64,000 nt of DNA from a virus. The stretch spans positions 1 to 64,000 of IMG/VR virus record IMGVR_UViG_3300039310_000050; one strand, given 5' to 3'. Below the pieces are notes generated by a model. It did no database searches, was not told where the DNA came from, and saw nothing but the letters and a program-made list of their open reading frames with translations. Below are positions 10,785 through 63,296 of the stretch, one piece after another (position 1 is the first letter of the stretch; every line of letters begins with the position of its first letter). The position numbers were made by a program, and so were the translations under genes.

Positions 10785-11753
10785 CTAATCTAATAATTTC
10801 TCATAATCATTTAAAGAATCTTCATTTTCAACTACTACTTCTGAATCAGTAGTTATTTCTTTCTTTTTCTTGGAAGGTTTTCTTACAGCTTCTTCCCAAG
10901 GGGCTTTAGTTTCTTTTTCTTCTTTAGCATTTTTAGATGGTGATTTTTTGGCTACATCTTCCGCAAGTTTAGTTTCACCAAATAATTCATCAGCTTTCTT
11001 TTGAATCTTTCCTTTAACTCCATTAACTGTATCATTAAATTTCTTTTCTAATTCCTCATAAGATTTAAATTTAGATTCTTCAACAAATGGTTGTAATTTA
11101 TAAAGTTGTTTATAAATCTTTTCCATTTTGGTTTCATCTCCACTACAGGCAAGTGAAGAGGTACGGAATTTACTGTCATCATAATTACGATATCCTGCAA
11201 CCTTTTTGATATCGAGATTAAAATCTGCACCTTCCCAAAAATCAAATACATTAATTGCGGGATCTTCTTCATCCTTGGGTTTTAAAGCACCTTTAATTTT
11301 TTCGAAAATTTTCTGACCATATTGATATAAAAATACTTTATCTTCGTTTTCGGGTGTTTCTTTATCTTTTAATACCAAAATATTAGAAACATACCGCAAT
11401 TGGCGTTTACGCTTTTTTACAATATTTCTATTTTCATCCAATTCGGTCTTCCATAAAACTCCATTCGCTTTACAAACGGGGCATTCACGACCAAGTGTAG
11501 TAGGACACAATTCAATATAATAATTTCCATCTACATCAAAATTATGTTCGTAATATTGGATCCAGGGAAGATCTTCCCCTTCAGGAGCAGGTAGAAAACG
11601 AATTTTAGCAGAACCCGTACCAGCTTTATCTACGGTAGGTTTCCAAAATCGAGAATCTTTAAATTTATTTTTATTTCCTTCTGAAATCTCTTCTACTCTT
11701 TTATTTATTTTAGTTAAATCTGTTCTATTTTTTTTATATGTGGCAAAACTCAT
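10785..11753 (-). CDS. 32: single-stranded DNA-binding protein gp32
   Basis: 322 residues. The N-terminal basic LAST-like segment and Lys-rich region, the zinc-binding YEHNFD...CPTTLGRECPVC motif (His plus three Cys) and the acidic C-terminal tail (ENEDSLNDYEKLLD) match T4 gp32 (301 residues). It coats ssDNA and organises gp59, gp41, gp43 and UvsX. It is preceded by a sigma70 promoter, an overlapping late promoter and a folded 5' leader, consistent with expression through infection and translational autoregulation as in T4. Confidence 0.95.
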   Translation of the reverse strand: MSFATYKKNRTDLTKINKRVEEISEGNKNKFKDSRFWKPTVDKAGTGSAKIRFLPAPEGEDLPWIQYYEHNFDVDGNYYIELCPTTLGRECPVCKANGVLWKTELDENRNIVKKRKRQLRYVSNILVLKDKETPENEDKVFLYQYGQKIFEKIKGALKPKDEEDPAINVFDFWEGADFNLDIKKVAGYRNYDDSKFRTSSLACSGDETKMEKIYKQLYKLQPFVEESKFKSYEELEKKFNDTVNGVKGKIQKKADELFGETKLAEDVAKKSPSKNAKEEKETKAPWEEAVRKPSKKKKEITTDSEVVVENEDSLNDYEKLLD

Positions 11754-12060: not shown

Positions 12061-12229
12061 GTTTTAACTCCGAAATTTCTCGATAAGTGCGGATTAATTC
12101 TTCTTTCAATGTGGCAATTTCTATTTCTAAACAACCTCGTTTAGCAATTTCATCATTAGCTTTTTCTACCGCTTGATTAAATTTTTTACAAATGATGTTA
12201 TAACTATTTTGAAGTTCCGCATATTGCAT
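12047..12229 (-). CDS. small coiled-coil protein, 60 aa
   Basis: Almost entirely helical with heptad-like spacing (YNIICKKFNQAVEKANDEIA, LEIEIATLKEELIRTYREI). Its start overlaps the gp59 stop region by 26 nt. It sits between gp59 and gp32 genes; function unknown. Confidence 0.55.
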   Translation of the reverse strand: MQYAELQNSYNIICKKFNQAVEKANDEIAKRGCLEIEIATLKEELIRTYREISELKHANI

Positions 12230-12839
12230 ATTTGTATTCCCGTTTTATTTTTTCACGGAGTAGTTTTTTACATTTCTCCAAATTGATATTTATAAAGGGG
12301 GAATATTTACAAATTTTCATCCAAAAATCTTTCCAAATTATATCTGTTAATCGTTTATTAAAATTAAAACCACATCCTAATATACGATCTAAAATAATAA
12401 ATGTTTCTAAACTAATAATTCTCTGTAATACCATTCTAACAATAATTGGATGATTTCCTTCTTTAATCCGAAATAAATCATTAAATGTATATCCATTTAT
12501 TTCAGCCCATTCCAATAAACCGGTGCATTCTTCTGAAAAATGATATGTAAGACTTTCAATCTTTTTTAACCATTCAATGTAAATTGCTTCCGAAGTTTCA
12601 TCTAATAAATCACCAATCCATAAATTTGGATTATCTACAAAATTGGCTACAAATAAATCAATTAATTTGGCTTTGGAATATTTTTTACAAATACGGTAGA
12701 AAAATGCTTTATCTTCCCGCTTATCAAATGAATTGGGTGTTAATCTGGTTTTACCATTGAATTTATGGAAATCAAAACTTGGACTATTAAAATGTGTTTT
12801 TACGGCAATATATAATTCAAAAGCATCATAGGGAGACAT
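12204..12839 (-). CDS. 59: helicase loader gp59
   Basis: 211 residues, T4 gp59 has 217. Shared pattern in order: LYIAVKTHFN near the start, RLTPNSFDKREDKAFFYRI, KLIDLFVANFVDNPNLWIGD, and IISLETFIILDRIL. Gp59 binds gp32-coated forks and loads the gp41 helicase. The 32-59-33 gene order also matches T4. Start ATG follows TTAAGGAGATTCA, a strong ribosome binding site. Confidence 0.9.
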   Translation of the reverse strand: MSPYDAFELYIAVKTHFNSPSFDFHKFNGKTRLTPNSFDKREDKAFFYRICKKYSKAKLIDLFVANFVDNPNLWIGDLLDETSEAIYIEWLKKIESLTYHFSEECTGLLEWAEINGYTFNDLFRIKEGNHPIIVRMVLQRIISLETFIILDRILGCGFNFNKRLTDIIWKDFWMKICKYSPFININLEKCKKLLREKIKREYKYAICGTSK

Positions 12840-12950: not shown

Positions 12951-13295
12951 TTATACTTTTAATAATCTCCTTTCTATTGCAACCATTTCTAATTTTTCTT
13001 TCATTGTTTTGGTTAACAATTTAGGAACAGATTCATATTCAATTTCATATTTCTCACATAATTTCATTAATGCATCAAAATAATCTAATCGTTCTCTACG
13101 AACTACATCTTCAATTTCTAATGAAAATGCTGTTGGGGTTATTTGATATAATGGATGATCTATAAATAAAATGTCTACCGATTCATCTATTTTCTTTTTC
13201 TTCATACATGGTTTTCTTCTCCAATGTTCATATAATGGATTGGAGCATACATCACATTTTTCTATTCGTTCTTCCCAATCATCTATATAACTCAT
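12951..13295 (-). CDS. 33: late-transcription co-activator gp33-like
   Basis: 114 residues, as T4 gp33 (112). The C-terminal two thirds match the gp33 pattern: IEDVVRRERLDYFDALMKLC, EKYEIEYESVPKLLTKT and MKEKLEMVAIERRLL. The N-terminus differs and has CDVCSNPLYEHWRRKPC, perhaps a zinc knuckle. Gp33 links sliding clamp and RNA polymerase for TATAAATA promoters, which are present here. Gene order after gp59 supports it. Confidence 0.7.
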   Translation of the reverse strand: MSYIDDWEERIEKCDVCSNPLYEHWRRKPCMKKKKIDESVDILFIDHPLYQITPTAFSLEIEDVVRRERLDYFDALMKLCEKYEIEYESVPKLLTKTMKEKLEMVAIERRLLKV

Positions 13296-13404: not shown

Positions 13405-13824
13405 TTATTTAAAGAAGATATGATCTTGAATACGGATTGTCCTATGATAGGCCCATTTTGGATTAACATAATATGCATGGAAATATAAAGCACATTTAGT
13501 AGGATCTTTATAATTATTTAAATTCCAATACATATCTTGAGCTATTTGGTAAGATGTTATATATTGTTTCCAACATTTAATTGGACCAGATTTCCAAGTG
13601 AATTGTTTTAAATTACCAATTTTTTGGTTAATTACTTCACAAGGAGTTAAATTATATTTTTGTACTCGATTAAATATTACAAACGCAACCGCTTCTTTTC
13701 CTAATGTCTTTTGATTTCCAGCTTCATAATAGATAGCTTGAGTAATACAAGTTATCTGTTTTTCTATGAGCGGTTGACTACGGAGGGGTAAGAATAAAAA
13801 CACTAATAGGAATATAAGTTTCAT
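13405..13824 (-). CDS. SleB-type cell-wall hydrolase with signal peptide
   Basis: From the ATG at 13824 the protein begins MKLIFLLVFLFLPLRSQP, an export signal. It continues CITQAIYYEAGNQKTLGKEA and VAFVIFNRVQ, the signature of the Hydrolase_2/SleB family (cortex-lytic or cell-wall amidase/transglycosylase-like), with the catalytic Glu in YYEA. It could act as an exported endolysin beside the cytoplasmic lysozyme at 51.2 kb. An upstream ATG at 13845 would add seven residues. Confidence 0.8.
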   Translation of the reverse strand: MKLIFLLVFLFLPLRSQPLIEKQITCITQAIYYEAGNQKTLGKEAVAFVIFNRVQKYNLTPCEVINQKIGNLKQFTWKSGPIKCWKQYITSYQIAQDMYWNLNNYKDPTKCALYFHAYYVNPKWAYHRTIRIQDHIFFK

Positions 13825-13859
13825 GGATATATTTAGGGAATTCATTTCTTTTTAGTAGA

Positions 13860-13912: not shown

Positions 13913-13921
13913 TTAATTTTA

Positions 13922-14190
13922 TTCCTGGGATTCTGTTCCAAGGCTCCCAGGATGCCCGCTGCGTAACCGTTTTAGGCGGCCATTGGCAAATAGTCGAATG
14001 TTTCATCGGCTGTTATTGTTTTATTCCGATTTACGAGAGTTTCTGCTCGTGCTGTCCTATATCCTGATATACACCAATCGATACCTTGACGCCCCCATAA
14101 TATAAAACTATGGAGAAGTTGGTGGAGGCGGGGGTAATCGAAACCCCGTCTTGTTTGCAATCCCAATACAAGTCTTTATACAGCAATATT
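13922..14190 (-). ncRNA. ssrA: circularly permuted (two-piece) tmRNA
   Basis: Read on the minus strand, the gene first gives an acceptor piece: a T-arm (ACGGGG, TTTCGAT loop, CCCC) and the 3' acceptor strand CGCCTCC, then A and CCA ending at 14120. A 23-nt intervening segment (14119-14097) follows. Then comes the 5' acceptor strand GGGGGCG (14096-14090), which pairs with all seven bases of CGCCTCC (one G-U), a TCGAT-containing D-like region, the tag frame, and a terminal 8-bp hairpin (TCCTGGGA/TCCCAGGA). This order is that of the permuted tmRNAs of alphaproteobacteria and some cyanobacteria. The 5' limit of the acceptor piece is uncertain. The product would rescue stalled ribosomes. Confidence 0.85.
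13972..14010 (-). other. tmRNA proteolysis-tag reading frame
   Basis: After an A-rich stretch, the frame GCC...TAA encodes ADETFDYLPMAA. With the alanine carried by tmRNA the full tag would be A-ADETFDYLPMAA. It starts with Ala-Asp-Glu and ends in Ala-Ala like known tags, but has Met where Leu or Val is usual (LAA/VAA). Confidence 0.8.
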
Positions 14191-14310: not shown

Positions 14311-14502
14311 TTAATCCAAATAGCCAGTGGTTAAAATAACTTCCATGGCTTCATCATATTTTTCTTTTTTCAATAGTTCTTTTGTTATTCTCCGTAATGA
14401 ACGTTTCAATTGACCAACTTTGATATGTCCAAAAACAGAATGTAATCCTCTACGACATTGAGAACAACTGCAACCATTGAGAATACTTTTTCTTTTTGCC
14501 AT
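14311..14502 (-). CDS. small zinc-finger-like phage protein
   Basis: 63 residues: GCSCSQCRRGLHS near the N-terminus (three clustered Cys plus His), then a basic helical region. Small proteins of this design occur in many T4-like phages; function is unknown to me. A GTTAGGAGCGTCAA ribosome binding site precedes the ATG. A three-codon frame (ATG ACG TAT TAA) with its own strong AGGAGGTG site ends just upstream. Confidence 0.65.
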   Translation of the reverse strand: MAKRKSILNGCSCSQCRRGLHSVFGHIKVGQLKRSLRRITKELLKKEKYDEAMEVILTTGYLD

Positions 14503-14683: not shown

Positions 14684-14760
14684 TGGTCGGAAATGGTGGA
14701 TTCGAACCACCGACCCTCGGTTCCCAAAACCGATGCTCTACCAGACTGAGCCAATTTCCG
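14684..14760 (-). tRNA. tRNA-Pro (UGG)
   Basis: Acceptor CGGAAAT/ATTTCCG, A73 and encoded CCA. Anticodon stem TCGGT/ACCGA with loop TTTGGGA gives UGG. T-arm has GGTTCGAATCC. Confidence 0.95.
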
Positions 14761-54188: not shown

Positions 54189-54264
54189 TGGCAGGGGTGG
54201 GGAGACTCGAACTCCCGTCTTACAGTTTTGGAGACTGCCATCCTTCCCATTAAACGACACCCCT
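54189..54264 (-). tRNA. tRNA-Trp (CCA)
   Basis: Acceptor AGGGGTG/CACCCCT, encoded CCA, anticodon loop CTCCAAA. Confidence 0.95.
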
Positions 54265-54282
54265 ATTAGTGGCGTTATACAA

Positions 54283-54567
54283 TTATTTATCGCTTTCTAA
54301 TTCTAATAAAATATCATTAGGGATATTATCTTTAGACAAAATCATAAATGGTGCCACAAAAAGAGTTACTGTTTTTACTTTCCAAGTTTTTGCTCTTCCA
54401 ATTCTATAATCCCATTTATCTTCTATACGAGCCCGAATAGAAATATTACCATTTTCTGTAATGTTGACAACTCTTCCAACTCTTAAATGTGTTCCTTTAT
54501 ATTTACTAGAAGTGGGAGCAGCGATATAATCTCCAATTTTAATTTCACGTTCAAAAATATCTTTCAT
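54283..54567 (-). CDS. KOW/SH3-like small protein, 94 aa
   Basis: IKIGDYIAAPTSSKYKGTHL and RVGRVVNITENGNISIRARI look like a small beta barrel; WDYRIGRAKTWKVKTVTLF follows. Phages commonly carry such SH3-like proteins. 4-nt overlap with the glycosyltransferase-like gene. Confidence 0.55.
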   Translation of the reverse strand: MKDIFEREIKIGDYIAAPTSSKYKGTHLRVGRVVNITENGNISIRARIEDKWDYRIGRAKTWKVKTVTLFVAPFMILSKDNIPNDILLELESDK

Positions 54568-55436
54568 ACTTTTATAATTTTTCCTTTTGAGAAAATAGCA
54601 GCTAAATCCGATAAATTACCAGCATTCTTAACCAAAATACTGGCCATAGAAAACATAACCATCATTGTTATTACCTTTAGTGCCTTTTCATATCCGGATT
54701 GTGGATTAACACAATCGGATATAATATGCATATCAATCGGTGCATGAGGTGGTACTCTATAAAATTCATCCATAATTATTATTTGCGGAAATTGTTTCTG
54801 CATTTTTTCAGCAATTATCTGTTCTTCTGGTTGAAACCAAATTTTATATGTTGGATGTTCTATTAATAAATTCTCTAAAATACCAAAATAATCTTCAATT
54901 GAAACCAATTTCAAACCAGGATTAATTCGTAAATCATTAAATTTATTTGTTCCTCTGTGAGAAACCGCTATTGTTTCTTCTGGAATTAAATTATACCTTT
55001 TAAAAAGTATATTTGCATACTGTTGTACACTTGGACTCCATTTTACAAGTCGTGGTACAATTTCCCTTAATAATTCCATTTCAGATACATTATAAACATC
55101 AATACGACCTAATGTTAAAAGATCATTCAACTTTCGCATATATTCACCCATACCAATAGGGTATGGATATACTTGCGGCCAAATATCATGTGGATTATCT
55201 AAGACTTCATCTAATTCTACTAACGGTTGTTCAAAAAACCAATCCCAAACATTTGGTCCTAATAATATAGGAGCATTTGAATCTTTATATAAACCAATTG
55301 TAGATCCTCGGCGCCAATCAACGGCCGCTTTAATTCCACACAATTCAGCATTTCGGAGCATCAATACATAATTCAATATATGAAATGCTAATGGTGATTC
55401 ATCATCGCTATCACATTGGATTAATGCATAACTCAT
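54564..55436 (-). CDS. putative glycosyltransferase (fucosyltransferase-like)
   Basis: 290 residues. AFHILNYVLMLRNAELCGIK, VWDWFFEQP, AVSHRGTNKFND (compare V-H-x-R-R/G-T-D/K of GT23/NodZ-like enzymes), and YKIWFQPEEQIIAEKM then VKVITMMVMFSMASILV. The GT-B-like pattern suggests transfer of a sugar to DNA or virion proteins. Evidence is moderate: motif order fits, but no search was possible. Confidence 0.45.
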   Translation of the reverse strand: MSYALIQCDSDDESPLAFHILNYVLMLRNAELCGIKAAVDWRRGSTIGLYKDSNAPILLGPNVWDWFFEQPLVELDEVLDNPHDIWPQVYPYPIGMGEYMRKLNDLLTLGRIDVYNVSEMELLREIVPRLVKWSPSVQQYANILFKRYNLIPEETIAVSHRGTNKFNDLRINPGLKLVSIEDYFGILENLLIEHPTYKIWFQPEEQIIAEKMQKQFPQIIIMDEFYRVPPHAPIDMHIISDCVNPQSGYEKALKVITMMVMFSMASILVKNAGNLSDLAAIFSKGKIIKV

Positions 55437-55585
55437 GGTTTAAATTCCGTATCTTTAATAGAACAATTTGAGATTCTTTCTACTGGAAGAAGTCTTTCAA
55501 TAAAATCACAAGCTTCCTCATAAGTATCAGTAGAAACCAATTTCTTTTTAGATTCATAAATAATAAAACGTTTAGTTTTATTCAT
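55433..55585 (-). CDS. 50-aa hypothetical protein
   Basis: MNKTKRFIIYESKKKLVSTD then TYEEACDFIERLLPVERISN. TGA overlaps the next ATG (ATGA). Looks like a small alpha/beta protein; unknown. Confidence 0.5.
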   Translation of the reverse strand: MNKTKRFIIYESKKKLVSTDTYEEACDFIERLLPVERISNCSIKDTEFKP

Positions 55586-55838
55586 TTTTAAGATTTTCCA
55601 AATAAGATCTTTGTTCTAAAAGTTCTTTTCTTTCATCTGCCAAAACCACTAATATAGAACAATCTATACCATATTTTTTCAAATTATCAAGTATATCTTT
55701 CCAATTACTACAGCTTATTGATTCTAATTTATCAGAAATATCTTTCAACATATAAGCAATATCATTAAATTTTCTTGTATTATCTTCTATTTTTCTTGCT
55801 ACTTCTTTTTCTTTTTTAAAATATTCTTTTACTTCCAT
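55578..55838 (-). CDS. helical protein, 86 aa
   Basis: From MEVKEYFKKEKEVARKIEDN with GGAGGGGAAATTTT upstream. Mostly helical with a short beta segment. The longer frame upstream is the antisense of tRNA-Leu and is discarded. Unknown function. Confidence 0.55.
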   Translation of the reverse strand: MEVKEYFKKEKEVARKIEDNTRKFNDIAYMLKDISDKLESISCSNWKDILDNLKKYGIDCSILVVLADERKELLEQRSYLENLKNE

Positions 55839-55863
55839 AAAATTTCCCCTCCCTTCAAAAATT

Positions 55864-55940
55864 TGGTAGCCCGAGAGGGATTCGAACCCACAAAAAATAG
55901 CTCCTAAGGCTACCGCGTCTGCCAATTTCGCCACCGGGCC
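55864..55940 (-). tRNA. tRNA-Leu (UAG)
   Basis: Anticodon stem GTAGC/GCTAT with loop CTTAGGA gives UAG; D-arm GCGAAATTGGCAGACGC is typical of Leu. The variable arm is unusually short for a leucine tRNA. CCA encoded. Confidence 0.88.
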
Positions 55941-55952
55941 AATTTTACTTTT

Positions 55953-56231
55953 CTATAATACTTCCAAAACTGGTTTAGAAATTATTTTAACTTCTTTTAC
56001 CAATTTATAAATACCAAAAATCACTTCTCCATCACCACTATTATTGCGTAATTGTTCATTTAGAAATTCAGTATCTTGTAAATCTTTTTCATTTGAAGAT
56101 ACTATATTTTCATCAATATCACTATATATTAACGTATTTTCCGTTTTATTTCCCTTTCTTTGGTGTAGTAACCAAAACTGCTGAAGGATTAGCAGATAAT
56201 TTATAAGTTCTAACCAATTCATAAACTCCAA
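55953..56231 (-). CDS. small protein, paralog of the next gene, start uncertain
   Basis: The C-terminal part GEVIFGIYKLVKEVKIISKP parallels GQEILVGVYELVRTYKLSAN of the 56146 protein, so the two are likely duplicates. The only ATGs of this frame (56231, 56222) lie deep inside the upstream gene; the coding-like part (KTENTLIYSDIDENI onward) starts after the 56146 stop with no ATG, GTG or TTG. Translation may use ATT or a coupled start. Confidence 0.45.
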   Translation of the reverse strand: MEFMNWLELINYLLILQQFWLLHQRKGNKTENTLIYSDIDENIVSSNEKDLQDTEFLNEQLRNNSGDGEVIFGIYKLVKEVKIISKPVLEVL

Positions 56232-56373
56232 CTAAAATTTCTTGTCCTTCATTAAAATTACTAAGGACATCTTCAACATACTCCTTTTGTTTTACATCAG
56301 ATTCCTTAGTATCCAGATCAAAAGAATCCTTTCCTTCAACAACAACAATCGTTTTTAGTAAATTATGTGACAT
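56146..56373 (-). CDS. small protein, 75 aa
   Basis: MSHNLLKTIVVVEGKDSFDL start; beta-rich C-terminus ILVGVYELVRTYKLSANPSA. AGAGAAAAA upstream. Related to the downstream 55953 frame. Unknown function. Confidence 0.55.
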   Translation of the reverse strand: MSHNLLKTIVVVEGKDSFDLDTKESDVKQKEYVEDVLSNFNEGQEILVGVYELVRTYKLSANPSAVLVTTPKKGK

Positions 56374-56389
56374 TTTTTTTCTCTCTTTT

Positions 56390-56752
56390 CTATAAATATA
56401 AACTTGGTAATTTAACTGCTTCTTCTACTAATCCAACCCAATAATCATCCAAATTATCAATATTAAAATCTTTTTCACCAAAACCATTATCCCTCAAAAA
56501 ATTTCTAATATACATCCCATAACCAAAATGATATTCTGTCCACCATTCTTGTGGGTCATTATCAATCGCTTGACGAATTTTATCTATTGATTCCCGTTTT
56601 AAATGAACTTTTAAAAATTGAACACATTCATTACGTAAATCCGGTCTTAATAAAGCCACTTTATCCGCATGATATTTTTGCCAATTTTCTGGTAAATTCA
56701 AATCGACTTCACCAGTTATTTTCTCCTCGGTTTGTTTCCATATTCTAAACAT
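56390..56752 (-). CDS. hypothetical protein, 120 aa
   Basis: WWTEYHFGYGMYIRNFLRDN followed by a hydrophobic helix resembles the conserved 'hfglGmyIRN..L..' core of DUF6794-like proteins found in many bacteria and phages. Function unknown. Driven by the promoter at 56815-56843. Confidence 0.6.
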   Translation of the reverse strand: MFRIWKQTEEKITGEVDLNLPENWQKYHADKVALLRPDLRNECVQFLKVHLKRESIDKIRQAIDNDPQEWWTEYHFGYGMYIRNFLRDNGFGEKDFNIDNLDDYWVGLVEEAVKLPSLYL

Positions 56753-56814
56753 ATATTACCTTTTAAATGATTGGTTCCACATGTGGATGTAATTCTTCAA
56801 AATAACATAATCTA

Positions 56815-56843
56815 AATATATCACAAATAATTCTGGTTGTCAA
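56815..56843 (-). promoter_or_regulatory. sigma70-type promoter
   Basis: TTGACA, 17 nt, TATATT, 60 nt before the 56752 ATG and just downstream of tRNA-Asn. Confidence 0.7.
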
Positions 56844-56853
56844 GTAAGAAATT

Positions 56854-56928
56854 TGGCTCTGGCCCTTGGATTCGAACCAAGATCCTAAATGTTAACAGCA
56901 TTTCGCTTTACCATTAAGCTAGACCAGA
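56854..56928 (-). tRNA. tRNA-Asn (GUU)
   Basis: Acceptor TCTGGTC/GGCCAGA, anticodon loop CTGTTAA, CCA encoded. Confidence 0.93.
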
Positions 56929-57032
56929 AGATCCTTTAGCTACCCGGGAATGTAATTACTTTCAGAATCTAAAACCAATTCATATTTGAGCAAGTAAAAT
57001 TTATAATTTTCAATATAACATTGGTGGTCTTT

Positions 57033-57171
57033 TTAAATATAAATAATAGCTTGTGTAACATAATCAGGACGTTTGTATAATTTAGCTTTACTTATTTTTT
57101 ATCCACGTATCACGACCACAATAAAATGGCTTAATCCATCCATCATTACGCCGCAAAATATACACATTCAT
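57033..57171 (-). pseudogene. 45-aa gene with a frameshift in an A-run
   Basis: MNVYILRRNDGWIKPFYCGR DTWIK, then a run of six A (57095-57100), after which coding continues in the +1 frame as SKAKLYKRPDYVTQAIIYI and a stop. Removing one A gives an uninterrupted 45-residue frame. Decay, sequence error and recoding are all possible. Confidence 0.55.
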
Positions 57172-57183
57172 AATATTATCCTT

Positions 57184-57258
57184 TGGAGCGAGGTGCGAGG
57201 ATCGAACTCGCATAAACTAGCTTGGAAGGCTAGCGCACAACCATTATACCAACCTCGC
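57184..57258 (-). tRNA. tRNA-Gly (UCC)
   Basis: Acceptor GCGAGGT/ACCTCGC, anticodon stem CTAGC/GCTAG with loop CTTCCAA, CCA encoded. Confidence 0.95.
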
Positions 57259-57278
57259 CACGCTCATCCGAGGCGCCC

Positions 57279-57302
57279 ATTCGCGATTCGCGAATCGCGA
57301 AT
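57279..57302. repeat. perfect 24-bp CG-rich palindrome
   Basis: ATTCGCGATTCG and its exact complement with no spacer, holding TCGCGA twice. It stands out in an AT-rich genome. It lies in a 90-nt gap without a gene, between tRNA-Gly and the 57542 gene; an additional GGATTC/GAATCC pair flanks it. Confidence 0.65.
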
Positions 57303-57350
57303 CCCGAATCTATAATGGTCTCATGGTCTTGAAGCCACAGGATTCCTCGC

Positions 57351-57542
57351 TTATCGAATACGCAATTGATATTGTAACTTTTCTGCCAAAATCATAATAT
57401 CTTCGGCATTTTCGGTACAAACAAATCTTAACCCACTATCCTTACGTATTTCTACATTTTTTAGTATTTCATATATTTCTCCTATTGTTAGATAATCTCT
57501 CAATAGAAAAAATAAAAATAATTTAATTCGTTCTTGATCCAT
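57351..57542 (-). CDS. 63-aa hypothetical protein
   Basis: From MDQERIKLFLFFLLRDYLTI; helical with an acidic C-terminal half ENAEDIMILAEKLQYQLRIR. Upstream codons of the longer frame are antisense to tRNA-Gln. Many phages encode a similar 'ERIKLFLFFLLRD.l..GEI..il..' small protein. Unknown. Confidence 0.55.
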   Translation of the reverse strand: MDQERIKLFLFFLLRDYLTIGEIYEILKNVEIRKDSGLRFVCTENAEDIMILAEKLQYQLRIR

Positions 57543-57563
57543 ACTATTCCTCAATTCAAAATT

Positions 57564-57637
57564 TGGCACCCGGTCAGGGACTCGAACCCCAATTAATGGC
57601 TCCAAAGGCCACTGTCCTACCATTAGACGAACCAGGT
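57564..57637 (-). tRNA. tRNA-Gln (UUG)
   Basis: Acceptor ACCTGGT/ACCGGGT, anticodon stem GTGGC/GCCAT with loop CTTTGGA, CCA encoded. Confidence 0.95.
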
Positions 57638-57638
57638 A

Positions 57639-58001
57639 TTAACCCATAGAACTTGGTGAAGTACCCATAGTATTTACATTAGCATTATAAGGTTCTTCTA
57701 TTTTTGACCGACGAAATTCCTTATTTTTTTCTTCTCGTTCTGTTTTATCTCTATCTTCAGTTATTGGTGTATCTTTCAAAAAATTTTCAAGAGACATATC
57801 ATCCATACGGCCTACTTGGATAACTACACCATCAAGGACAAAATGCCATTCATTTGCTGGAAGATCAAGTAATATTTCTTGCCCTTCATCAAATCGGTAA
57901 GACCAATGTTCATCAGCCCCTTTAACAGGACCTACATAACCATGCATATTTAATAAAATGGTTTGCGTTGCTTGTTTAAAAATTTCTTTATAAGATTTCA
58001 T
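57639..58001 (-). CDS. hypothetical protein, 120 aa
   Basis: N-terminal compact domain (IFKQATQTILLNMHGYVGPV, ILLDLPANEWHFVLDGVVIQ) and a polar, disordered C-terminus ending MGTSPSSMG. One nt after tRNA-Gln. Unknown. Confidence 0.55.
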   Translation of the reverse strand: MKSYKEIFKQATQTILLNMHGYVGPVKGADEHWSYRFDEGQEILLDLPANEWHFVLDGVVIQVGRMDDMSLENFLKDTPITEDRDKTEREEKNKEFRRSKIEEPYNANVNTMGTSPSSMG

Positions 58002-58013
58002 ATTTAATATTTA

Positions 58014-58409
58014 TCAAAATTTCAAAAAACTTTCATGGATTAATATACCTTTTGGTGGTCTTGTTTCACACCTTCCATACCGAGAACTACAATTATATGG
58101 TATATATTTCTCAGTATTAAAAATTGCTTTCTTTCCATTTAAAGGACCACCAATACAAGGAAATTTAGTAGATCCACTTACTCTTTTATAAGAATAACTA
58201 TATTCCCATTTTGATTTGGTTTTTAATTTATAAAATACATCACTAATAAAAACATCTTCCGATCGATTTTCAGTTTCATTATGTATTGTTAACACATCCT
58301 GATCCCATTTTATATCATATTTTTCATAAGAATCATAATCTTTTAAGAAAGCGGGTTGTTTGAATGTTCGTTTTATAACATCAGGGAATTTCGTTTTTCC
58401 TATCCACAT
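58014..58409 (-). CDS. hypothetical protein, 131 aa
   Basis: Beta-rich, with STKFPCIGGPLNGKKAIF, a 'GGPLNGkk' segment found in many small phage proteins, and RYGRCETRPPKGILIHESFL. Overlaps the 28-aa frame upstream. Unknown function. Confidence 0.55.
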   Translation of the reverse strand: MWIGKTKFPDVIKRTFKQPAFLKDYDSYEKYDIKWDQDVLTIHNETENRSEDVFISDVFYKLKTKSKWEYSYSYKRVSGSTKFPCIGGPLNGKKAIFNTEKYIPYNCSSRYGRCETRPPKGILIHESFLKF

Positions 58410-58486
58410 ACTACTACTCCATGTTTAAATAATACACTCGGTTCTATCGTTCCATCATTATACATTGCAACCTTTTCTTCACTCAT
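58400..58486 (-). CDS. 28-aa frame
   Basis: MSEEKVAMYNDGTIEPSVLF KHGVVVCG; GGTGGAAATT precedes the ATG and its end overlaps the next start. Possibly a micro-protein; weak evidence. Confidence 0.35.
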   Translation of the reverse strand: MSEEKVAMYNDGTIEPSVLFKHGVVVCG

Positions 58487-58517
58487 AATTTCCACCAATA
58501 ATATACATGAAATAACA

Positions 58518-59702
58518 TTACATATCCTTCTTATCCCGAAATCCAAGTGCCCTTGGAAACCTTGGAATACCATCTGCTGTTAAATTTTGAAATGCTACTT
58601 TCACCAACTTACCAATATATTTCTTTCCATCTCGGTAATATTCTTCACGTTTTGCCGCCGATGCTTTAGGTGTAGCTTTAAATCTCTTATGATCTTTTGT
58701 TTCACAAATCCAAATGGCTGAATTAGCCATTTTACCAACACCATGTTCGAAATCAACTACCTTATATTCTGCATCTTGGAAAGATTTTACTTTTTGAATA
58801 TCGCTTGATCGGTGGCCAAATAAATATTCACCATCCCAATTACGGACAATACATCCTTCATATCCTTGTTCCACAAATGTTTTTTCAAAATCAAAAATTT
58901 CATCATATTCATATGTAGGTTGTAAACATGCACTACAAACTCCTGCATAATATTTTGGTAATTTAACTACTTGATTTACAATATAAGTTGGTACTAAAAC
59001 CAAATATGCACTTTCATATTTTGGACTAGTAGGGTTTAATTTATGAAAAAATGCTTCAAGATTTTTCAAGCGATTCTTCCAAATATCACGTTTCCCCAAT
59101 TCATTAATTGGCATATCAAATACATGATATTCTAATTGTTCTGTTTCACCTTCATGATATTTCTTTGCCCATGAAGTAAGAGATTCAAAATCAACTCCAT
59201 GAACATATAATTCACCATCCAGAACCATTTCTTGTGGCATTACTTTTTCAAGTTCTTCAATAATATGTTTAGGAGCCGTCCATTCTTTACCACCGCGAGT
59301 CCCTAATACTACACGGCCATCTTCCCAATATGCCATTGCACGAACACCATCCAATTTTGGTTGGAGGTCACATGGATAAACGATTCCGCGGCCTTTCTTT
59401 TTATGAAAATCGTGTGCCAACATAGGTAAAAAGATTTCTTCTTTAGCACCTTCTTTAGTTTCAGAATATTTTCGTTCCCGTTTAAAAGTCCACATTGCTT
59501 GAGCTTCCAAAATTGCTTGTTCTTCCGCAGTTGTGGCATTTGCTTTACCAAAATTTTTTGGAGTAGCTTTTTTGGGTGAAAGTTGTAATTTACCACCAAT
59601 TTGTCCATGGCGGGTAATAATAGTATCACCTTCTGTCCAAATATCCCATTGAACTAAAGCTCCCGTTTTACTTTTATGATATAATGTTGGAAATGTTTTC
59701 AT
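58518..59702 (-). CDS. 30: ATP-dependent DNA ligase with N-terminal WGR domain
   Basis: 394 residues from MKTFPTLYHKSKTGALVQWD. Residues about 5-75 (WDIWTEGDTIITRHGQIGGK) form a WGR-like domain. The ligase core has motif I LQPKLDGVRAMAYW (catalytic Lys), MVLDGELYV (III), GYEGCIVRN (IV) and KVKSFQDAEYKVV (V/VI), then an OB domain. Seals nicks in replication; the WGR domain may bind DNA or direct partners. The longer upstream frame overlaps the 59889 gene and is discarded. Confidence 0.88.
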   Translation of the reverse strand: MKTFPTLYHKSKTGALVQWDIWTEGDTIITRHGQIGGKLQLSPKKATPKNFGKANATTAEEQAILEAQAMWTFKRERKYSETKEGAKEEIFLPMLAHDFHKKKGRGIVYPCDLQPKLDGVRAMAYWEDGRVVLGTRGGKEWTAPKHIIEELEKVMPQEMVLDGELYVHGVDFESLTSWAKKYHEGETEQLEYHVFDMPINELGKRDIWKNRLKNLEAFFHKLNPTSPKYESAYLVLVPTYIVNQVVKLPKYYAGVCSACLQPTYEYDEIFDFEKTFVEQGYEGCIVRNWDGEYLFGHRSSDIQKVKSFQDAEYKVVDFEHGVGKMANSAIWICETKDHKRFKATPKASAAKREEYYRDGKKYIGKLVKVAFQNLTADGIPRFPRALGFRDKKDM

Positions 59703-59703
59703 T

Positions 59704-59889
59704 TTAAAATCCTTGTGAACGGTCATATGCAGCTTCCGCTTGAGCGGCCTTTTTTTCCGACCAATTAACCTCAGCATCAAGGAAAACATTATACTGTTCA
59801 TTTTCAGGCAAATCGTAAAAATCTACACCAAAACGTTCTTCAGCAAGACGTTCTGCTTCCATTTGAATTTCATATTTATAGTCTGACAT
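59704..59889 (-). CDS. 61-aa acidic helical protein
   Basis: MSDYKYEIQMEAERLAEERF then GVDFYDLPENEQYNVFLDAE. Acidic, helical. Ends 1 nt before the ligase ATG. Transcribed from a perfect sigma70 promoter. Unknown function. Confidence 0.6.
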   Translation of the reverse strand: MSDYKYEIQMEAERLAEERFGVDFYDLPENEQYNVFLDAEVNWSEKKAAQAEAAYDRSQGF

Positions 59890-59906
59890 ATTCAACCTCA
59901 ATTACA

Positions 59907-59935
59907 ATTATAGCGTATGTAAGGCCGCTTGTCAA
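59907..59935 (-). promoter_or_regulatory. perfect sigma70-type promoter
   Basis: TTGACA, 17 nt, TATAAT, 17 nt before the ATG. Just downstream of the folded RNA at 59949-60041. Confidence 0.85.
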
Positions 59936-59948
59936 GTGATTTTTAAAG

Positions 59949-60041
59949 ACGCCTAGTGGATTCTTTGCTCACGCGAAAGAACCCTGTAAGGAGGCGAGAT
60001 GATCTTGCTCAAGGACCATCTTCTTGTGGTATGCTAGGCGT
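59949..60041 (-). ncRNA. 93-nt folded RNA in the tRNA region, with anti-SD sequence
   Basis: ACGCCTAG and CTAGGCGT close a three-helix fold. On the minus strand (the tRNA strand) helix 2 is AGATG...CATCT with an inner CTT/AAG, and helix 3 is GGGTTCTTT/AAAGAATCC (9 bp, one G-U). The strand between helices 2 and 3 carries CCTCCTTA (59994-59987), identical to the 16S rRNA anti-Shine-Dalgarno end. On the plus strand the same bases read TAAGGAGG, 4 nt before an ATG opening a 12-codon frame (59999-60037). Resembles in placement the T4 small stable RNAs C and D. Strand is uncertain. Confidence 0.6.
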
Positions 60042-60054
60042 ACCCATACCAAAC

Positions 60055-60131
60055 TGGAGCCGCGGGGGAGAATCGAACTCCCTCTCTGTTGATTACAGGT
60101 CAACCGCTTTCCCGGATTAAGCTACCGTGGC
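60055..60131 (-). tRNA. tRNA-Thr (UGU)
   Basis: Acceptor GCCACGG/CCGCGGC, anticodon stem GTTGA/TCAAC with loop CCTGTAA, CCA encoded. Confidence 0.93.
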
Positions 60132-60203
60132 TAATAACTTTTTCCTTTTATTTTAAAAATAAATCTCCTTCCCTTACCTTTTGTATTTAAAGATCCGAAA
60201 TTA

Positions 60204-60279
60204 TGGCGGGACCGAACGGATTCGAACCGTCAACATCTTGCTCGACAGGCAAGAACTCTAACCATTGAGCTACGGTCCC
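60204..60279 (-). tRNA. tRNA-Asp (GUC)
   Basis: Acceptor GGGACCG/CGGTCCC, anticodon stem CTTGC/GCAAG with loop CTGTCGA, CCA encoded. Confidence 0.95.
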
Positions 60280-60503
60280 TAAACTTTCTTTTTCGGATAA
60301 TCATTCACATAAAATCCAGGGCCCACAAATTTCAATGCGGAAGTAGAAACTTTCCGTTCCAAGTGGCCGCGGCATCTACTTTCTGTCAATTCATAATTTT
60401 CTGCTAAATCACCGTGGGTCAAAACTCTGGCTTCTTCATCCATCTTTTGGAAGATTTCAAAAGTCTTTCCGCATTCACTACACACGTAATCGTAATATGG
60501 CAT
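60279..60503 (-). CDS. FmdB-like zinc-ribbon protein (second copy)
   Basis: 74 residues from MPYYDYVCSECGKTFEIFQK; CSECG and a later CRGHLE give the ribbon, then VSTSALKFVGPGFYVNDYP. It shares the family pattern with 19824-20177. The stop abuts tRNA-Asp. Upstream codons of the longer frame run into the protease gene and are discarded. Confidence 0.78.
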   Translation of the reverse strand: MPYYDYVCSECGKTFEIFQKMDEEARVLTHGDLAENYELTESRCRGHLERKVSTSALKFVGPGFYVNDYPKKKV

Positions 60504-60510
60504 AAAAATC

Positions 60511-61293
60511 CTAATGGTCTTTTTCACCCTGTGTAGCCGCAGGTAATGGAGCATCTGGATCCGATTGATACCATTTATATTTTCCATCTTTTAATAATTT
60601 TCGAAATTTAATTAAACGCGATACTGGCATAGCAATCATACTTGTTTGTGCTACAGTACCAACTATAAAAGCACAAATAGCATGTTGATTCAAACAAATA
60701 ACCGATGAACCACTTGATCCACCATTTATACCAAATTCTTGTAATAATATAGTTCCAGTCCATTGAATGGCATCATCAACAATAGGACGATCAACACTTG
60801 TACTAGAAACAGACCCTAAAAACACTTGTTTACCAATTCCTAATGGACCACCAACATTAATTACTTCATCTAATAAATTAGGATCTTCACCTAATGGAAT
60901 AATAGGAAAACTAAAAGTTTTATCAACTGTTAATAAGAAAAAATCATCACCTTTAGTCCTATATCCGCAACCTTTAGGAATTGCTTTTAAATAAACTTTA
61001 TCCCCAGGAATATCTGGAGATATAAAGAAAAATGTTTTTTCTGGTGTAACTGTCTTTTTTTCCGAATCATCTATACAACCACAATGAGCGGCTGTAACAA
61101 ATGTATATGTAGTTTTATCTTCATCAATAGCTGTAGCGGTGCATTTCATTTCCATTGTACCTTGTGCTGTTTGAGCATATAATAATGTTGTAGCTGGCCA
61201 TAATACTTTATTCACATATAATTTATCGGCATTCGATAACTGTCCGAATATTAATGTTGAAAACATCAACGAAAGAACTATTAATTTCGTCAT
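60511..61293 (-). CDS. secreted trypsin-like serine protease
   Basis: 260 residues. N-terminal signal peptide MTKLIVLSLMFSTLIFGQ. Catalytic triad visible: TFVTAAHCG (His), KGDDFFLLTV (Asp), FGINGGSSGSSVI (Ser, GxSGS-type). This is the trypsin/DegP-like fold without a PDZ domain. Exported from the cell, it could act in lysis, on envelope proteins or on the virion. Unusual cargo in a T4-like genome. TTAAGGAAATTGG precedes the ATG. Confidence 0.85.
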   Translation of the reverse strand: MTKLIVLSLMFSTLIFGQLSNADKLYVNKVLWPATTLLYAQTAQGTMEMKCTATAIDEDKTTYTFVTAAHCGCIDDSEKKTVTPEKTFFFISPDIPGDKVYLKAIPKGCGYRTKGDDFFLLTVDKTFSFPIIPLGEDPNLLDEVINVGGPLGIGKQVFLGSVSSTSVDRPIVDDAIQWTGTILLQEFGINGGSSGSSVICLNQHAICAFIVGTVAQTSMIAMPVSRLIKFRKLLKDGKYKWYQSDPDAPLPAATQGEKDH

Positions 61294-61314
61294 CCAATTT
61301 CCTTAATTTAAATT

Positions 61315-61560
61315 TTAATCTCCTTTTCTTGGATCTTCTTTACTAGCATTTTTAATTTCTATTTCTGTTAATTTTACAGTTAATTCATTTTCATCCATTG
61401 CTTCAAAAAGAGCCATTTCAATAGCAATACCACCCTCTTCTTTTATAGTGGCTGCCCGTTTATTAATTCCGTGTGATACTAATAAATGATCTTTTTCCTT
61501 ATCAGATAATTGATTCATTTGTTTTACAAATTTAAGTGTATTTAATAATGTATGTTGCAT
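61315..61560 (-). CDS. 81-aa acidic protein
   Basis: From MQHTLLNTLKFVKQMNQLSD; helical with a short beta segment and an acidic middle. An upstream ATG at 61572 would add four residues but overlaps the preceding 24-aa frame. Unknown. Confidence 0.5.
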   Translation of the reverse strand: MQHTLLNTLKFVKQMNQLSDKEKDHLLVSHGINKRAATIKEEGGIAIEMALFEAMDENELTVKLTEIEIKNASKEDPRKGD

Positions 61561-61562
61561 AC

Positions 61563-61637
61563 TTATAACCATTCTCTTCCATAATCTTGTTCTTGATCAT
61601 ATCTTATTAATCTTTCAACAAAATCTTTTATTTTCAT
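61563..61637 (-). CDS. 24-aa micro-protein frame
   Basis: MKIKDFVERLIRYDQEQDYG REWL, with AAAGGAAATATC upstream. It overlaps the next gene's start and follows tRNA-His directly. Small phage proteins with 'VERLIRYDqEqdYGRE' recur, supporting translation. Confidence 0.4.
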   Translation of the reverse strand: MKIKDFVERLIRYDQEQDYGREWL

Positions 61638-61655
61638 GATATTTCCTTTAATCTT

Positions 61656-61731
61656 TGGAGGGACGTCAGAGAGTTGAACTCTATCTAATGGTTCCACAGA
61701 CCATCGTGCTTACCGGCAACACTTCCGTCCC
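61656..61731 (-). tRNA. tRNA-His (GUG)
   Basis: Anticodon stem ATGGT/ACCAT with loop CTGTGGA, CCA encoded; abuts tRNA-Tyr with no spacer. Confidence 0.92.
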
Positions 61732-61823
61732 TGGTGTAAGGTAATGGATTTGAACCACTGAGGCCTCCGAAGAGACAAAGGAGCTACAGCCCTTCGCATT
61801 CAACCGAACTCTGCCAACCTTAC
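61732..61823 (-). tRNA. tRNA-Tyr (GUA)
   Basis: 92 nt with a long variable arm; acceptor GTAAGGT/ACCTTAC, anticodon GTA in loop CTGTAGC, CCA encoded. Confidence 0.92.
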
Positions 61824-61827
61824 AAAA

Positions 61828-62208
61828 TTATTCTGCTTTATCTACTTTATTTAAACTTTCCACTTCTGTTCTTGGACGGCAAGCCTCACAAGTTAAAGAA
61901 TTTAATTCTTTAAGTAATTCCGAATTACGATCATAAAGAAAATTAATATCCTCAATCAAATTGTCTACTGCTAAATCAGTTTCCTTAACTCTATCCATTA
62001 AATCCTTTTCAACTTCTTCTAAGGATTCAACTTGTTCAAATAACTCATCATTTTCTTCTTCTAAGTTTTCAACCATTTCATTAGCTTCGTCCAAAGAATA
62101 TTCTAAGTCACGATAGGCTTCATCTAAATCAAAATTTTCTCTTAACAACTCTTTATTATTTTCTTTTAATTCTTTTACTAATTCTTTTAATTGTTTAACC
62201 GTTTTCAT
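61828..62208 (-). CDS. acidic coiled-coil protein, 126 aa
   Basis: From MKTVKQLKELVKELKENNKE, one long coiled coil (LEENDELFEQVESLEEVEKD and similar heptads), ending CEACRPRTEVESLNKVDKAE with a CxxC. No enzymatic motif. Set between tRNA genes. Confidence 0.6.
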   Translation of the reverse strand: MKTVKQLKELVKELKENNKELLRENFDLDEAYRDLEYSLDEANEMVENLEEENDELFEQVESLEEVEKDLMDRVKETDLAVDNLIEDINFLYDRNSELLKELNSLTCEACRPRTEVESLNKVDKAE

Positions 62209-62228
62209 AATTATCCTCATTTCTAATT

Positions 62229-62306
62229 TGGACCACCAGGAGGGACTTGAACCCTCTAAGACCAGTTTTGCAGACCTAGCGCCTCGACCACCTCGGCATC
62301 TAGTGA
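62229..62306 (-). tRNA. tRNA-Cys (GCA), weak anticodon stem
   Basis: Acceptor TCACTAG/CTGGTGG, T-arm GAGGGTTCAAGTCCCTC, anticodon GCA in loop CTGCAAA. The anticodon stem TAGGT/ACTGG has a mismatch and two wobbles, and the D-arm is Leu/Ser-like. CCA encoded. Confidence 0.75.
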
Positions 62307-62309
62307 ATT

Positions 62310-62384
62310 TGGTGGACCCGCCGAGACTCGAACTCGGAACTCAACCTTGCAAAGGTCATATTTTCCCATTAAAACTACAAGCCC
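62310..62384 (-). tRNA. tRNA-Ala (UGC)
   Basis: Anticodon loop TTTGCAA gives UGC; acceptor GGGCTTG/CGGGTCC with wobbles; CCA encoded. Confidence 0.85.
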
Positions 62385-62481
62385 AATTTTCTTTCTTCAT
62401 ACCACTGTTTTCTGTGGCAATTAGCACAAAGAACATCACTCTAAACCATCGTTTTCTATCTTCTGGATTTTTAAATGCCAT
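62375..62481 (-). pseudogene. frameshifted HNH-like remnant
   Basis: MAFKNPEDRKRWFR in one frame, then SDVLCANCHRKQWYEERKLG L in another; the CANCHR element is typical of HNH-type zinc sites. One extra base after TTTAGA would join them into about 35 residues. The end overlaps the 5' end of tRNA-Ala. Confidence 0.5.
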
Positions 62482-62493
62482 TTCTTTTAAAAT

Positions 62494-62569
62494 TGGTAGT
62501 GGATTAGGGAATCGAACCCTACTAAACTTGCTTGTAGAGCAAGTGCCTCAACCAGCCGGCCCATCCACT
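62494..62569 (-). tRNA. tRNA-Val (UAC), unusual C33 and G8
   Basis: Acceptor AGTGGAT/ATCCACT, T-arm TAGGG/CCCTA, anticodon stem CTTGC/GCAAG with loop TCTACAA: UAC with C instead of the near-universal U33, and G at position 8. CCA encoded. Confidence 0.75.
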
Positions 62570-62909
62570 AAACTACATCCGGATCAACTGGCGCCACTAC
62601 CACGCGGGCCGCGCTATCCAAATAACCATATGCTGTAGCCGTCCATTCACGGCTTGGAACAACCCGCAAAGTATGAGTACCCTTTTCAGTACCTTCTCTA
62701 ATTGTTGCCTTATGTTGTTTGGGGATTCTATCCCAACACTTTGAGCAAAACAAATTCTTACCAGATGCCATATTCTTACACTTCGGATAATCAAAACATC
62801 TATGAACACTACCAACCTTTTTCTTGGTTTTAGTAGCACGCCGGATAGCATCCTGGCATTCACTACATTTTTGATCGTTTCTTCCGATACTTGAGCAACC
62901 TGAACACAT
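62568..62909 (-). CDS. zinc-finger protein, 113 aa
   Basis: MCSGCSSIGRNDQKCSECQD, CFDYPKCKNMASGKNLFCSK: nine Cys in CxxC pairs indicate at least two zinc sites, followed by a beta-rich C-terminus. The end overlaps tRNA-Val by 2 nt. Could bind nucleic acid; function unknown. Confidence 0.62.
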   Translation of the reverse strand: MCSGCSSIGRNDQKCSECQDAIRRATKTKKKVGSVHRCFDYPKCKNMASGKNLFCSKCWDRIPKQHKATIREGTEKGTHTLRVVPSREWTATAYGYLDSAARVVVAPVDPDVV

Positions 62910-62928
62910 AAATTTTCAACCTCAATTC

Positions 62929-62957
62929 ATTGTAACACAATTTATTTAGAATGTCAA
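62929..62957 (-). promoter_or_regulatory. sigma70-type promoter
   Basis: TTGACA, 17 nt, TACAAT; its -35 begins where the upstream hairpin ends. Confidence 0.75.
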
Positions 62958-62976
62958 GGGGAATTTTAATTCCCCT
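62957..62976 (-). terminator. perfect 9-bp hairpin after the 62981 gene
   Basis: AGGGGAATT, 2-nt gap, AATTCCCCT, directly after the membrane-protein gene and joined to the next promoter. Confidence 0.6.
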
Positions 62977-62980
62977 ATAT

Positions 62981-63163
62981 TTAAATCAACAAAATCAATT
63001 TGGGTAATAACCACGCGAATAACCAAATTAATAACCCAATAACCAAAATAAAATTAATAACTACTCGAATTCTTTGGTCCATCGTCAAAGTACCCAATAA
63101 ATACCACGCAAGACCAACAAAGGCAAGAACTATACAAGACACAAAAATTAAATGAAGAAGCAT
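62981..63163 (-). CDS. two-helix membrane protein, holin candidate
   Basis: 60 residues with two hydrophobic helices around a short polar turn (TMDQRIRVV). Resembles Thivi_2564-type small membrane proteins; size and topology also fit a class II holin for the endolysin at 51155. A late promoter TATAAATA lies 50 nt upstream and AAGGAGTAAG precedes the ATG. Confidence 0.55.
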   Translation of the reverse strand: MLLHLIFVSCIVLAFVGLAWYLLGTLTMDQRIRVVINFILVIGLLIWLFAWLLPKLILLI

Positions 63164-63211
63164 AAGATATCTTACTCCTTTCTGGAGATACAGACACTTA
63201 TCTCATGTTAG

Positions 63212-63219
63212 TATTTATA
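63212..63219 (-). promoter_or_regulatory. T4-type late promoter
   Basis: An exact minus-strand TATAAATA upstream of the two-helix membrane protein gene. Confidence 0.55.
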
Positions 63220-63222
63220 TTT

Positions 63223-63296
63223 TGGTAGCGGGTGGGGGTATCGATCCCCACTCTATGGCTTATGAGACCATCGTGACACCTGTTCACTTCACCCGC
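63223..63296 (-). tRNA. tRNA-Met (CAU)
   Basis: Anticodon stem ATGGT/GCCAT with loop CTCATAA; T-arm GGGGATCGATACCCC. Elongator rather than initiator, as the anticodon stem lacks three G-C pairs; an Ile-type CAU (lysidine) is not excluded. The exact acceptor end is ambiguous by 1 nt. Confidence 0.85.

Follow-up and report, generated by a model that had tools for sequence, protein, structure and literature searches.

A circularly permuted tmRNA gene in a conserved position upstream of gp33 in T4-like phages

A tmRNA releases stalled ribosomes and marks the incomplete proteins on them. Among phages, Buchholz et al. counted 402 tmRNA-bearing genomes out of 18,146; two-piece forms numbered 53 among the 133 unique structures, and 50 of them came from marine or aquatic phages (PMC9004378). 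In the Methylophilales phage Melnitz EXVC044M (MZ577097, 45984-46436), a permuted tmRNA lies directly upstream of gp33 and gp59, followed by gp32, and this copy in the gp33-upstream slot has already been annotated and published (PMC9004378). The Pelagibacter phage HTVC008M (KC465899.1, 145161-145370) likewise holds a permuted tmRNA (90.6 bits) between an exonuclease gene and gp33. The locus described here occupies the same slot in a metagenomic virus. The original prediction, which identified it from the letters of the DNA, had called phage-borne tmRNAs rare, a statement that needs qualifying in light of the 402 genomes above and of the present searches: a single IMG/VR pattern scan returned 80 stretches, and permuted tmRNA was found in 22 of the 40 records tested, which were mostly T4-like and related through gp32.

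The permuted tmRNA locus and its neighborhood

The window, meaning the whole 64,000-nt stretch of DNA analyzed, is part of a virus record of 101,633 bases. A circularly permuted (two-piece) tmRNA is encoded at 13924-14185 on the minus strand of this T4-like phage (Table 1). The 3′ half (14130-14124) precedes the 5′ half (14096-14090) on that strand with a 23-nt spacer between them, and direct reading gave seven of seven acceptor pairs, including G3-U70, together with an encoded ACCA. The G3-U70 pair is an identity element for alanyl-tRNA synthetase (AlaRS). A PK1 stem, the one pseudoknot helix read, stands before the tag frame, which closes with Ala-Ala-stop. The first tag codon is uncertain by one codon; GCC matches the UAANN-resume pattern (UAACA followed by GCC) derived from related tmRNAs. 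The downstream hairpin is likely the 3′ end of the coding piece, and the alpha_tmRNA model match stops at 13921.

Table 1. Parts of the permuted tmRNA and neighboring genes in the window
Feature	Coordinates	Strand	Evidence or remark
tRNA-Pro(UGG), upstream of tmRNA	14684..14760	-	Kept in all six distinct relatives
ORF for 63-aa basic protein, directly upstream	14311..14502	-	Present in 7/7 of the lineage
tRNA-like (acceptor) piece: upstream helix strand, T-arm, 3′ acceptor strand, encoded CCA	14120..14185	-	RF04321 match and direct reading
T-arm GGGGT UUCGAUU ACCCC	14147-14131	-	5/5 pairs, read directly
3′ acceptor strand CGCCTCC	14124..14130	-	7/7 pairs with 14090-14096; covariation in 17 phages
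Encoded ACCA after 3′ acceptor strand	14123-14120	-	Read directly
Intervening segment, 23 nt, removal expected during processing	14097..14119	-	Predicted
5′ acceptor strand GGGGGCG	14090..14096	-	Third pair G-U (G3-U70)
PK1-type stem ACGAG/CTCGT, 5′ of tag	14033..14050	-	Read directly; covariation in relatives
Tag frame GCC GAT GAA ACA TTC GAC TAT TTG CCA ATG GCC GCC TAA	13972..14010	-	ADETFDYLPMAA plus stop
7-bp downstream hairpin CCTGGGA-GCCTTGGAACAGAA-TCCCAGG	13924..13951	-	Read directly
Hydrolase_2 cell-wall hydrolase, downstream	13405..13845	-	PF07486, E 3.1e-15
gp33-like late-transcription coactivator	12951..13295	-	PF16805, E 9.5e-20
gp59 helicase loader	12204..12839	-	PF08993/PF08994; phrog_269
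gp32 single-stranded DNA-binding protein	10785..11753	-	PF08804, E 8.8e-44

The Rfam model of permuted tmRNAs, RF04321 (tmRNA_permuted), matched 13972-14185 over its full length (1-213) at 114 bits against a cut-off of 47 (E 1.8e-21). Among the clade models, RF01850 (beta_tmRNA) scored best in the window at 83.5 bits against a cut-off of 84, with 68-82 bits in relatives, and RF01849 (alpha_tmRNA) reached 66.7 bits against a cut-off of 50. Minimum free energy folding of the whole RNA was unremarkable (z = -0.94) and was set aside as support; since folding energy is uninformative, support comes from the family models and from covariation. ARAGORN did not report the permuted tmRNA of the window and failed on 25 of 82 extracted pattern matches, so pipelines relying on ARAGORN would miss this gene too.

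The same-strand gene order reads rnh, DUF6433, SprT-like, tRNA-Pro, 63-aa ORF, tmRNA, cell-wall hydrolase, gp33, gp59, and gp32. The genome carrying the locus is that of a T4-like phage, as gp32, gp59, gp33, and RNase H surround the locus. The product of the 63-aa ORF has an early Cys motif, is predicted to be mainly helical with middling confidence (pLDDT 72), and matched no Pfam or PHROG family; its counterparts in the six relatives described below are 37-48% identical to the window's copy. Twelve more tRNA genes are scattered on the minus strand through 54189-63296 of the window. Similarity to isolated phages at the DNA level consisted of a 34-nt match in Caulobacter phages only, with none by megablast. 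As a separate observation, the Caulobacter phage CcrRogue (JX100814.1, 102546-102864) contains an 88.2-bit permuted tmRNA match with no tmRNA annotated.

Structure and position in related phages

Searching IMG/VR with gp32 recovered further assemblies of the same species as well as relatives whose gp32 is 63-73% identical. Six distinct near relatives (L030 and L084-L088) carry a permuted tmRNA in the same slot, scoring 108.5 bits (L030) or 68-97 bits (L084-L088) against RF04321, and each keeps the order tRNA-Pro, small ORF, tmRNA, gp33, gp59, gp32; the hydrolase gene is sometimes unrecognizable among relatives. One short contig (L090) gave no permuted tmRNA match. Among 13 long records of about 77-256 kb, 12 have the tmRNA on the strand of gp33 and 0.1-4.7 kb upstream of it; these records are not all independent, some being near-identical, and for G030 the distance was deduced from a nearly identical record. 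Spacer length ranges from 6 to 142 nt among parsed relatives. In one relative (L183, the L084 region), ACCC rather than ACCA is encoded after the acceptor, as in 6 of 52 sampled bacterial permuted tmRNAs. Apart from the tmRNA, a group I intron (RF00028, 77 bits) was found inside the gp32 gene region of a close relative (L088 and L089, 6269-6651), whose gp32 match is stretched to 1381 bases.

Acceptor and T-arm sequences of 17 T4-like phages were placed in register after removal of the spacer, with one T-arm omitted and one gap placed by hand. All 199 of 199 cells were paired, as compared to 74% in shuffled alignments; double changes numbered 45 against a shuffled mean of 11.8, and the covariation score was 0.618 against 0.114. 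Acceptor pairs 1, 2, 3, and 7 were invariant, the third being G-U (G3-U70) in 17 of 17. The downstream hairpin was paired in all seven sequences compared (the window plus its six closest distinct relatives), with all six counted pairs changed on both sides in some sequence, and the PK1 stem was paired in 88.6% of cells, again with both sides changing; both stems were registered by hand, which somewhat favors structure, and slid controls gave 27-47%. The parts are thus shown to be intact, the structure and the tag end to be under selection, and the position to be conserved. The original prediction of a permuted tmRNA in a T4-like phage is borne out by covariance models, T4 core neighbors, covariation, and conserved position in relatives, and its reading of the acceptor strands, permuted order, spacer, and tag agreed with ours in every part.

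Tag sequence and proposed role

Every tag in the T4 slot ends in Ala-Ala-stop, encoded by differing codons, and conservation through synonymous codons argues that the tag frame is translated. Tag ends among phage relatives are MAA, LAA, VAA, or IAA; within the lineage of the window they are PMAA, QMAA, or AMAA, and many phage tags begin without ANDN. The predicted resume codons of relatives are often non-alanine (AAC, AAA, GAC), which counts against a working tmRNA, as does the ACCC end of one relative. As an observation on other viral permuted tmRNAs (L004, L010, L017, and L069), ARAGORN predicts long tags of 22-28 residues, e.g., ANAFKPEVTVPMSVFADQELVAA. The MAA end of the window's tag had been put forward as a phage modification that could change degradation by host ClpXP. 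This idea is not supported, as 5 of 61 parsed bacterial permuted tmRNAs also end in MAA and the phage relatives vary; MAA was therefore rejected as a phage-specific tag end.

Taken as a whole, the locus is very probably a working tmRNA gene, a prediction that draws on comparative sequence evidence. SmpB was found neither in the 101,633-base record nor in 11 other records tested, and neither ClpP nor SspB was found in the six records searched for them, so host factors would be needed. One precursor transcript would be made from the tmRNA locus, and host tRNA-processing enzymes would presumably excise the 23-nt spacer, leaving two pieces held to each other through the acceptor stem and the helix next to it. 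Charging by host AlaRS would proceed through G3-U70, and host SmpB would deliver the phage tmRNA to ribosomes that had stalled on truncated mRNAs in the course of infection. Translation of the tag up to its stop codon would free the ribosome, and the tagged product would probably pass to host proteases. For a viral tmRNA, the authors of the Melnitz study proposed either upkeep of the hijacked machinery or recycling of host proteins (PMC9004378). The former, i.e., ribosome supply during infection, is the role favored here, although the present data do not separate the two.

An improbable alternative to ribosome rescue is that the phage retains the RNA for what its tag does to stalled products, for example sparing them or speeding their degradation. 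Phage tags do depart from the common alphaproteobacterial ANDN...ALAA type, as this explanation would have it; the bacterial MAA tags, phage relatives ending in either MAA or LAA, and the failure to find phage ClpP or SspB in the six records argue against it. Less probable again is a decoy role, in which the RNA would tie up host SmpB, AlaRS, or ribosomes and so inhibit host trans-translation. A tag-less tmRNA-like RNA of mycobacteriophage DS6A is reported to inhibit endogenous tmRNA in E. coli (described in PMC11915505), and a phage without its own SmpB would compete for that of the host. A decoy needs no tag, however, and is made less likely by the conserved tag, since Ala-Ala-stop is constrained in all relatives; PK1 and the downstream hairpin also covary.

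Origin and comparison with known systems

The idea of a recent capture from the host, with the gene carried as a functionless passenger, draws on permuted tmRNAs being common in bacteria and on both the beta_tmRNA and alpha_tmRNA models scoring the window. This reading is very unlikely and has already been largely refuted by the conserved slot: position is conserved, with extensive compensatory change, across phages whose gp32 proteins are 63-73% identical, and the RNA of the window falls outside the sampled alphaproteobacterial clade, with phage sequences as its nearest rows. An assembly chimera or bacterial contamination, conceivable for a metagenomic virus contig, is already refuted by recurrence in independent assemblies, namely, six further stretches from four contigs (L025, L051, L057, L070, L082, and L083) with exactly the same 360 nt, and independent records of up to 180 kb in which the gene order is unchanged.

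A tree of 123 tmRNA cores (158 columns), which is shallow and not settled by bootstrap, grouped the sampled tmRNAs of alphaproteobacterial type as a single clade (99/86), outside which the window falls. Nearest to the window stand L030, L085 (L184), and L088, all from its own phage lineage; Melnitz, HTVC008M, and three further sequences branch basally on the alpha side, where support is uneven. Assignment to the alphaproteobacterial subtype was rejected: the RF01849 cut-off was passed, yet the tree excludes the window from the sampled alpha clade and the T-loop differs. An acceptor pattern requiring CC where bacterial T-stems have CCCG, and therefore blind to ordinary forms, matched no donor bacterium; a looser genome pattern hit mainly groups in which permuted tmRNA is not known, along with some betaproteobacteria. 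The slot is common to these phages, and the RNAs within it may reflect either a single acquisition or replacement in place. As a tentative scenario, the permuted tmRNA could be an old, largely vertical neighbor of rnh, gp33, gp59, and gp32 across a wide T4-like clade, with the window's lineage having drifted to non-alanine resume codons and forming a unit with tRNA-Pro and the 63-aa protein as a possible phage-specific partner.

That the slot is shared and the structure preserved by compensatory change argues that these phages benefit from retaining ribosome rescue, which makes the question of why phages encode tmRNA testable. As compared to bacterial permuted tmRNAs (RF04321; RF01849 alpha, RF01850 beta, and RF01851 cyano), the RNA shares gene order, the G3-U70 acceptor, T-arm, PK1, tag, and downstream hairpin. 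Its acceptor, GGGGGCG/CGCCTCC, is shared by 29 of the 52 bacterial sequences sampled, more than any other, and its T-loop, UUCGAUU, is of the betaproteobacterial type, whereas most alpha forms have GGCGGUA; in the tree, it groups with its phage relatives and inside neither bacterial group. Melnitz differs from the window in its tag (ANDNYVPVDYALAA), alpha-type T-loop, and 142-nt spacer. A glutamine riboswitch was described at the 3′ domain of the Melnitz tmRNA (PMC9004378), unlike the window, which gave no Rfam riboswitch match. HTVC008M differs in its tag end (NEYALAA) and 49-nt spacer, and its record lacks a tmRNA feature at that position. This unannotated copy, together with the ARAGORN failures, indicates that annotation tools overlook some phage tmRNAs. 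A permuted tmRNA in a phage, even in the gp33-upstream slot, is not unprecedented. The present locus adds a well-supported lineage to the known phage tmRNAs, and the analysis contributes synteny conserved more widely, evidence from covariation, and copies that had gone unannotated.
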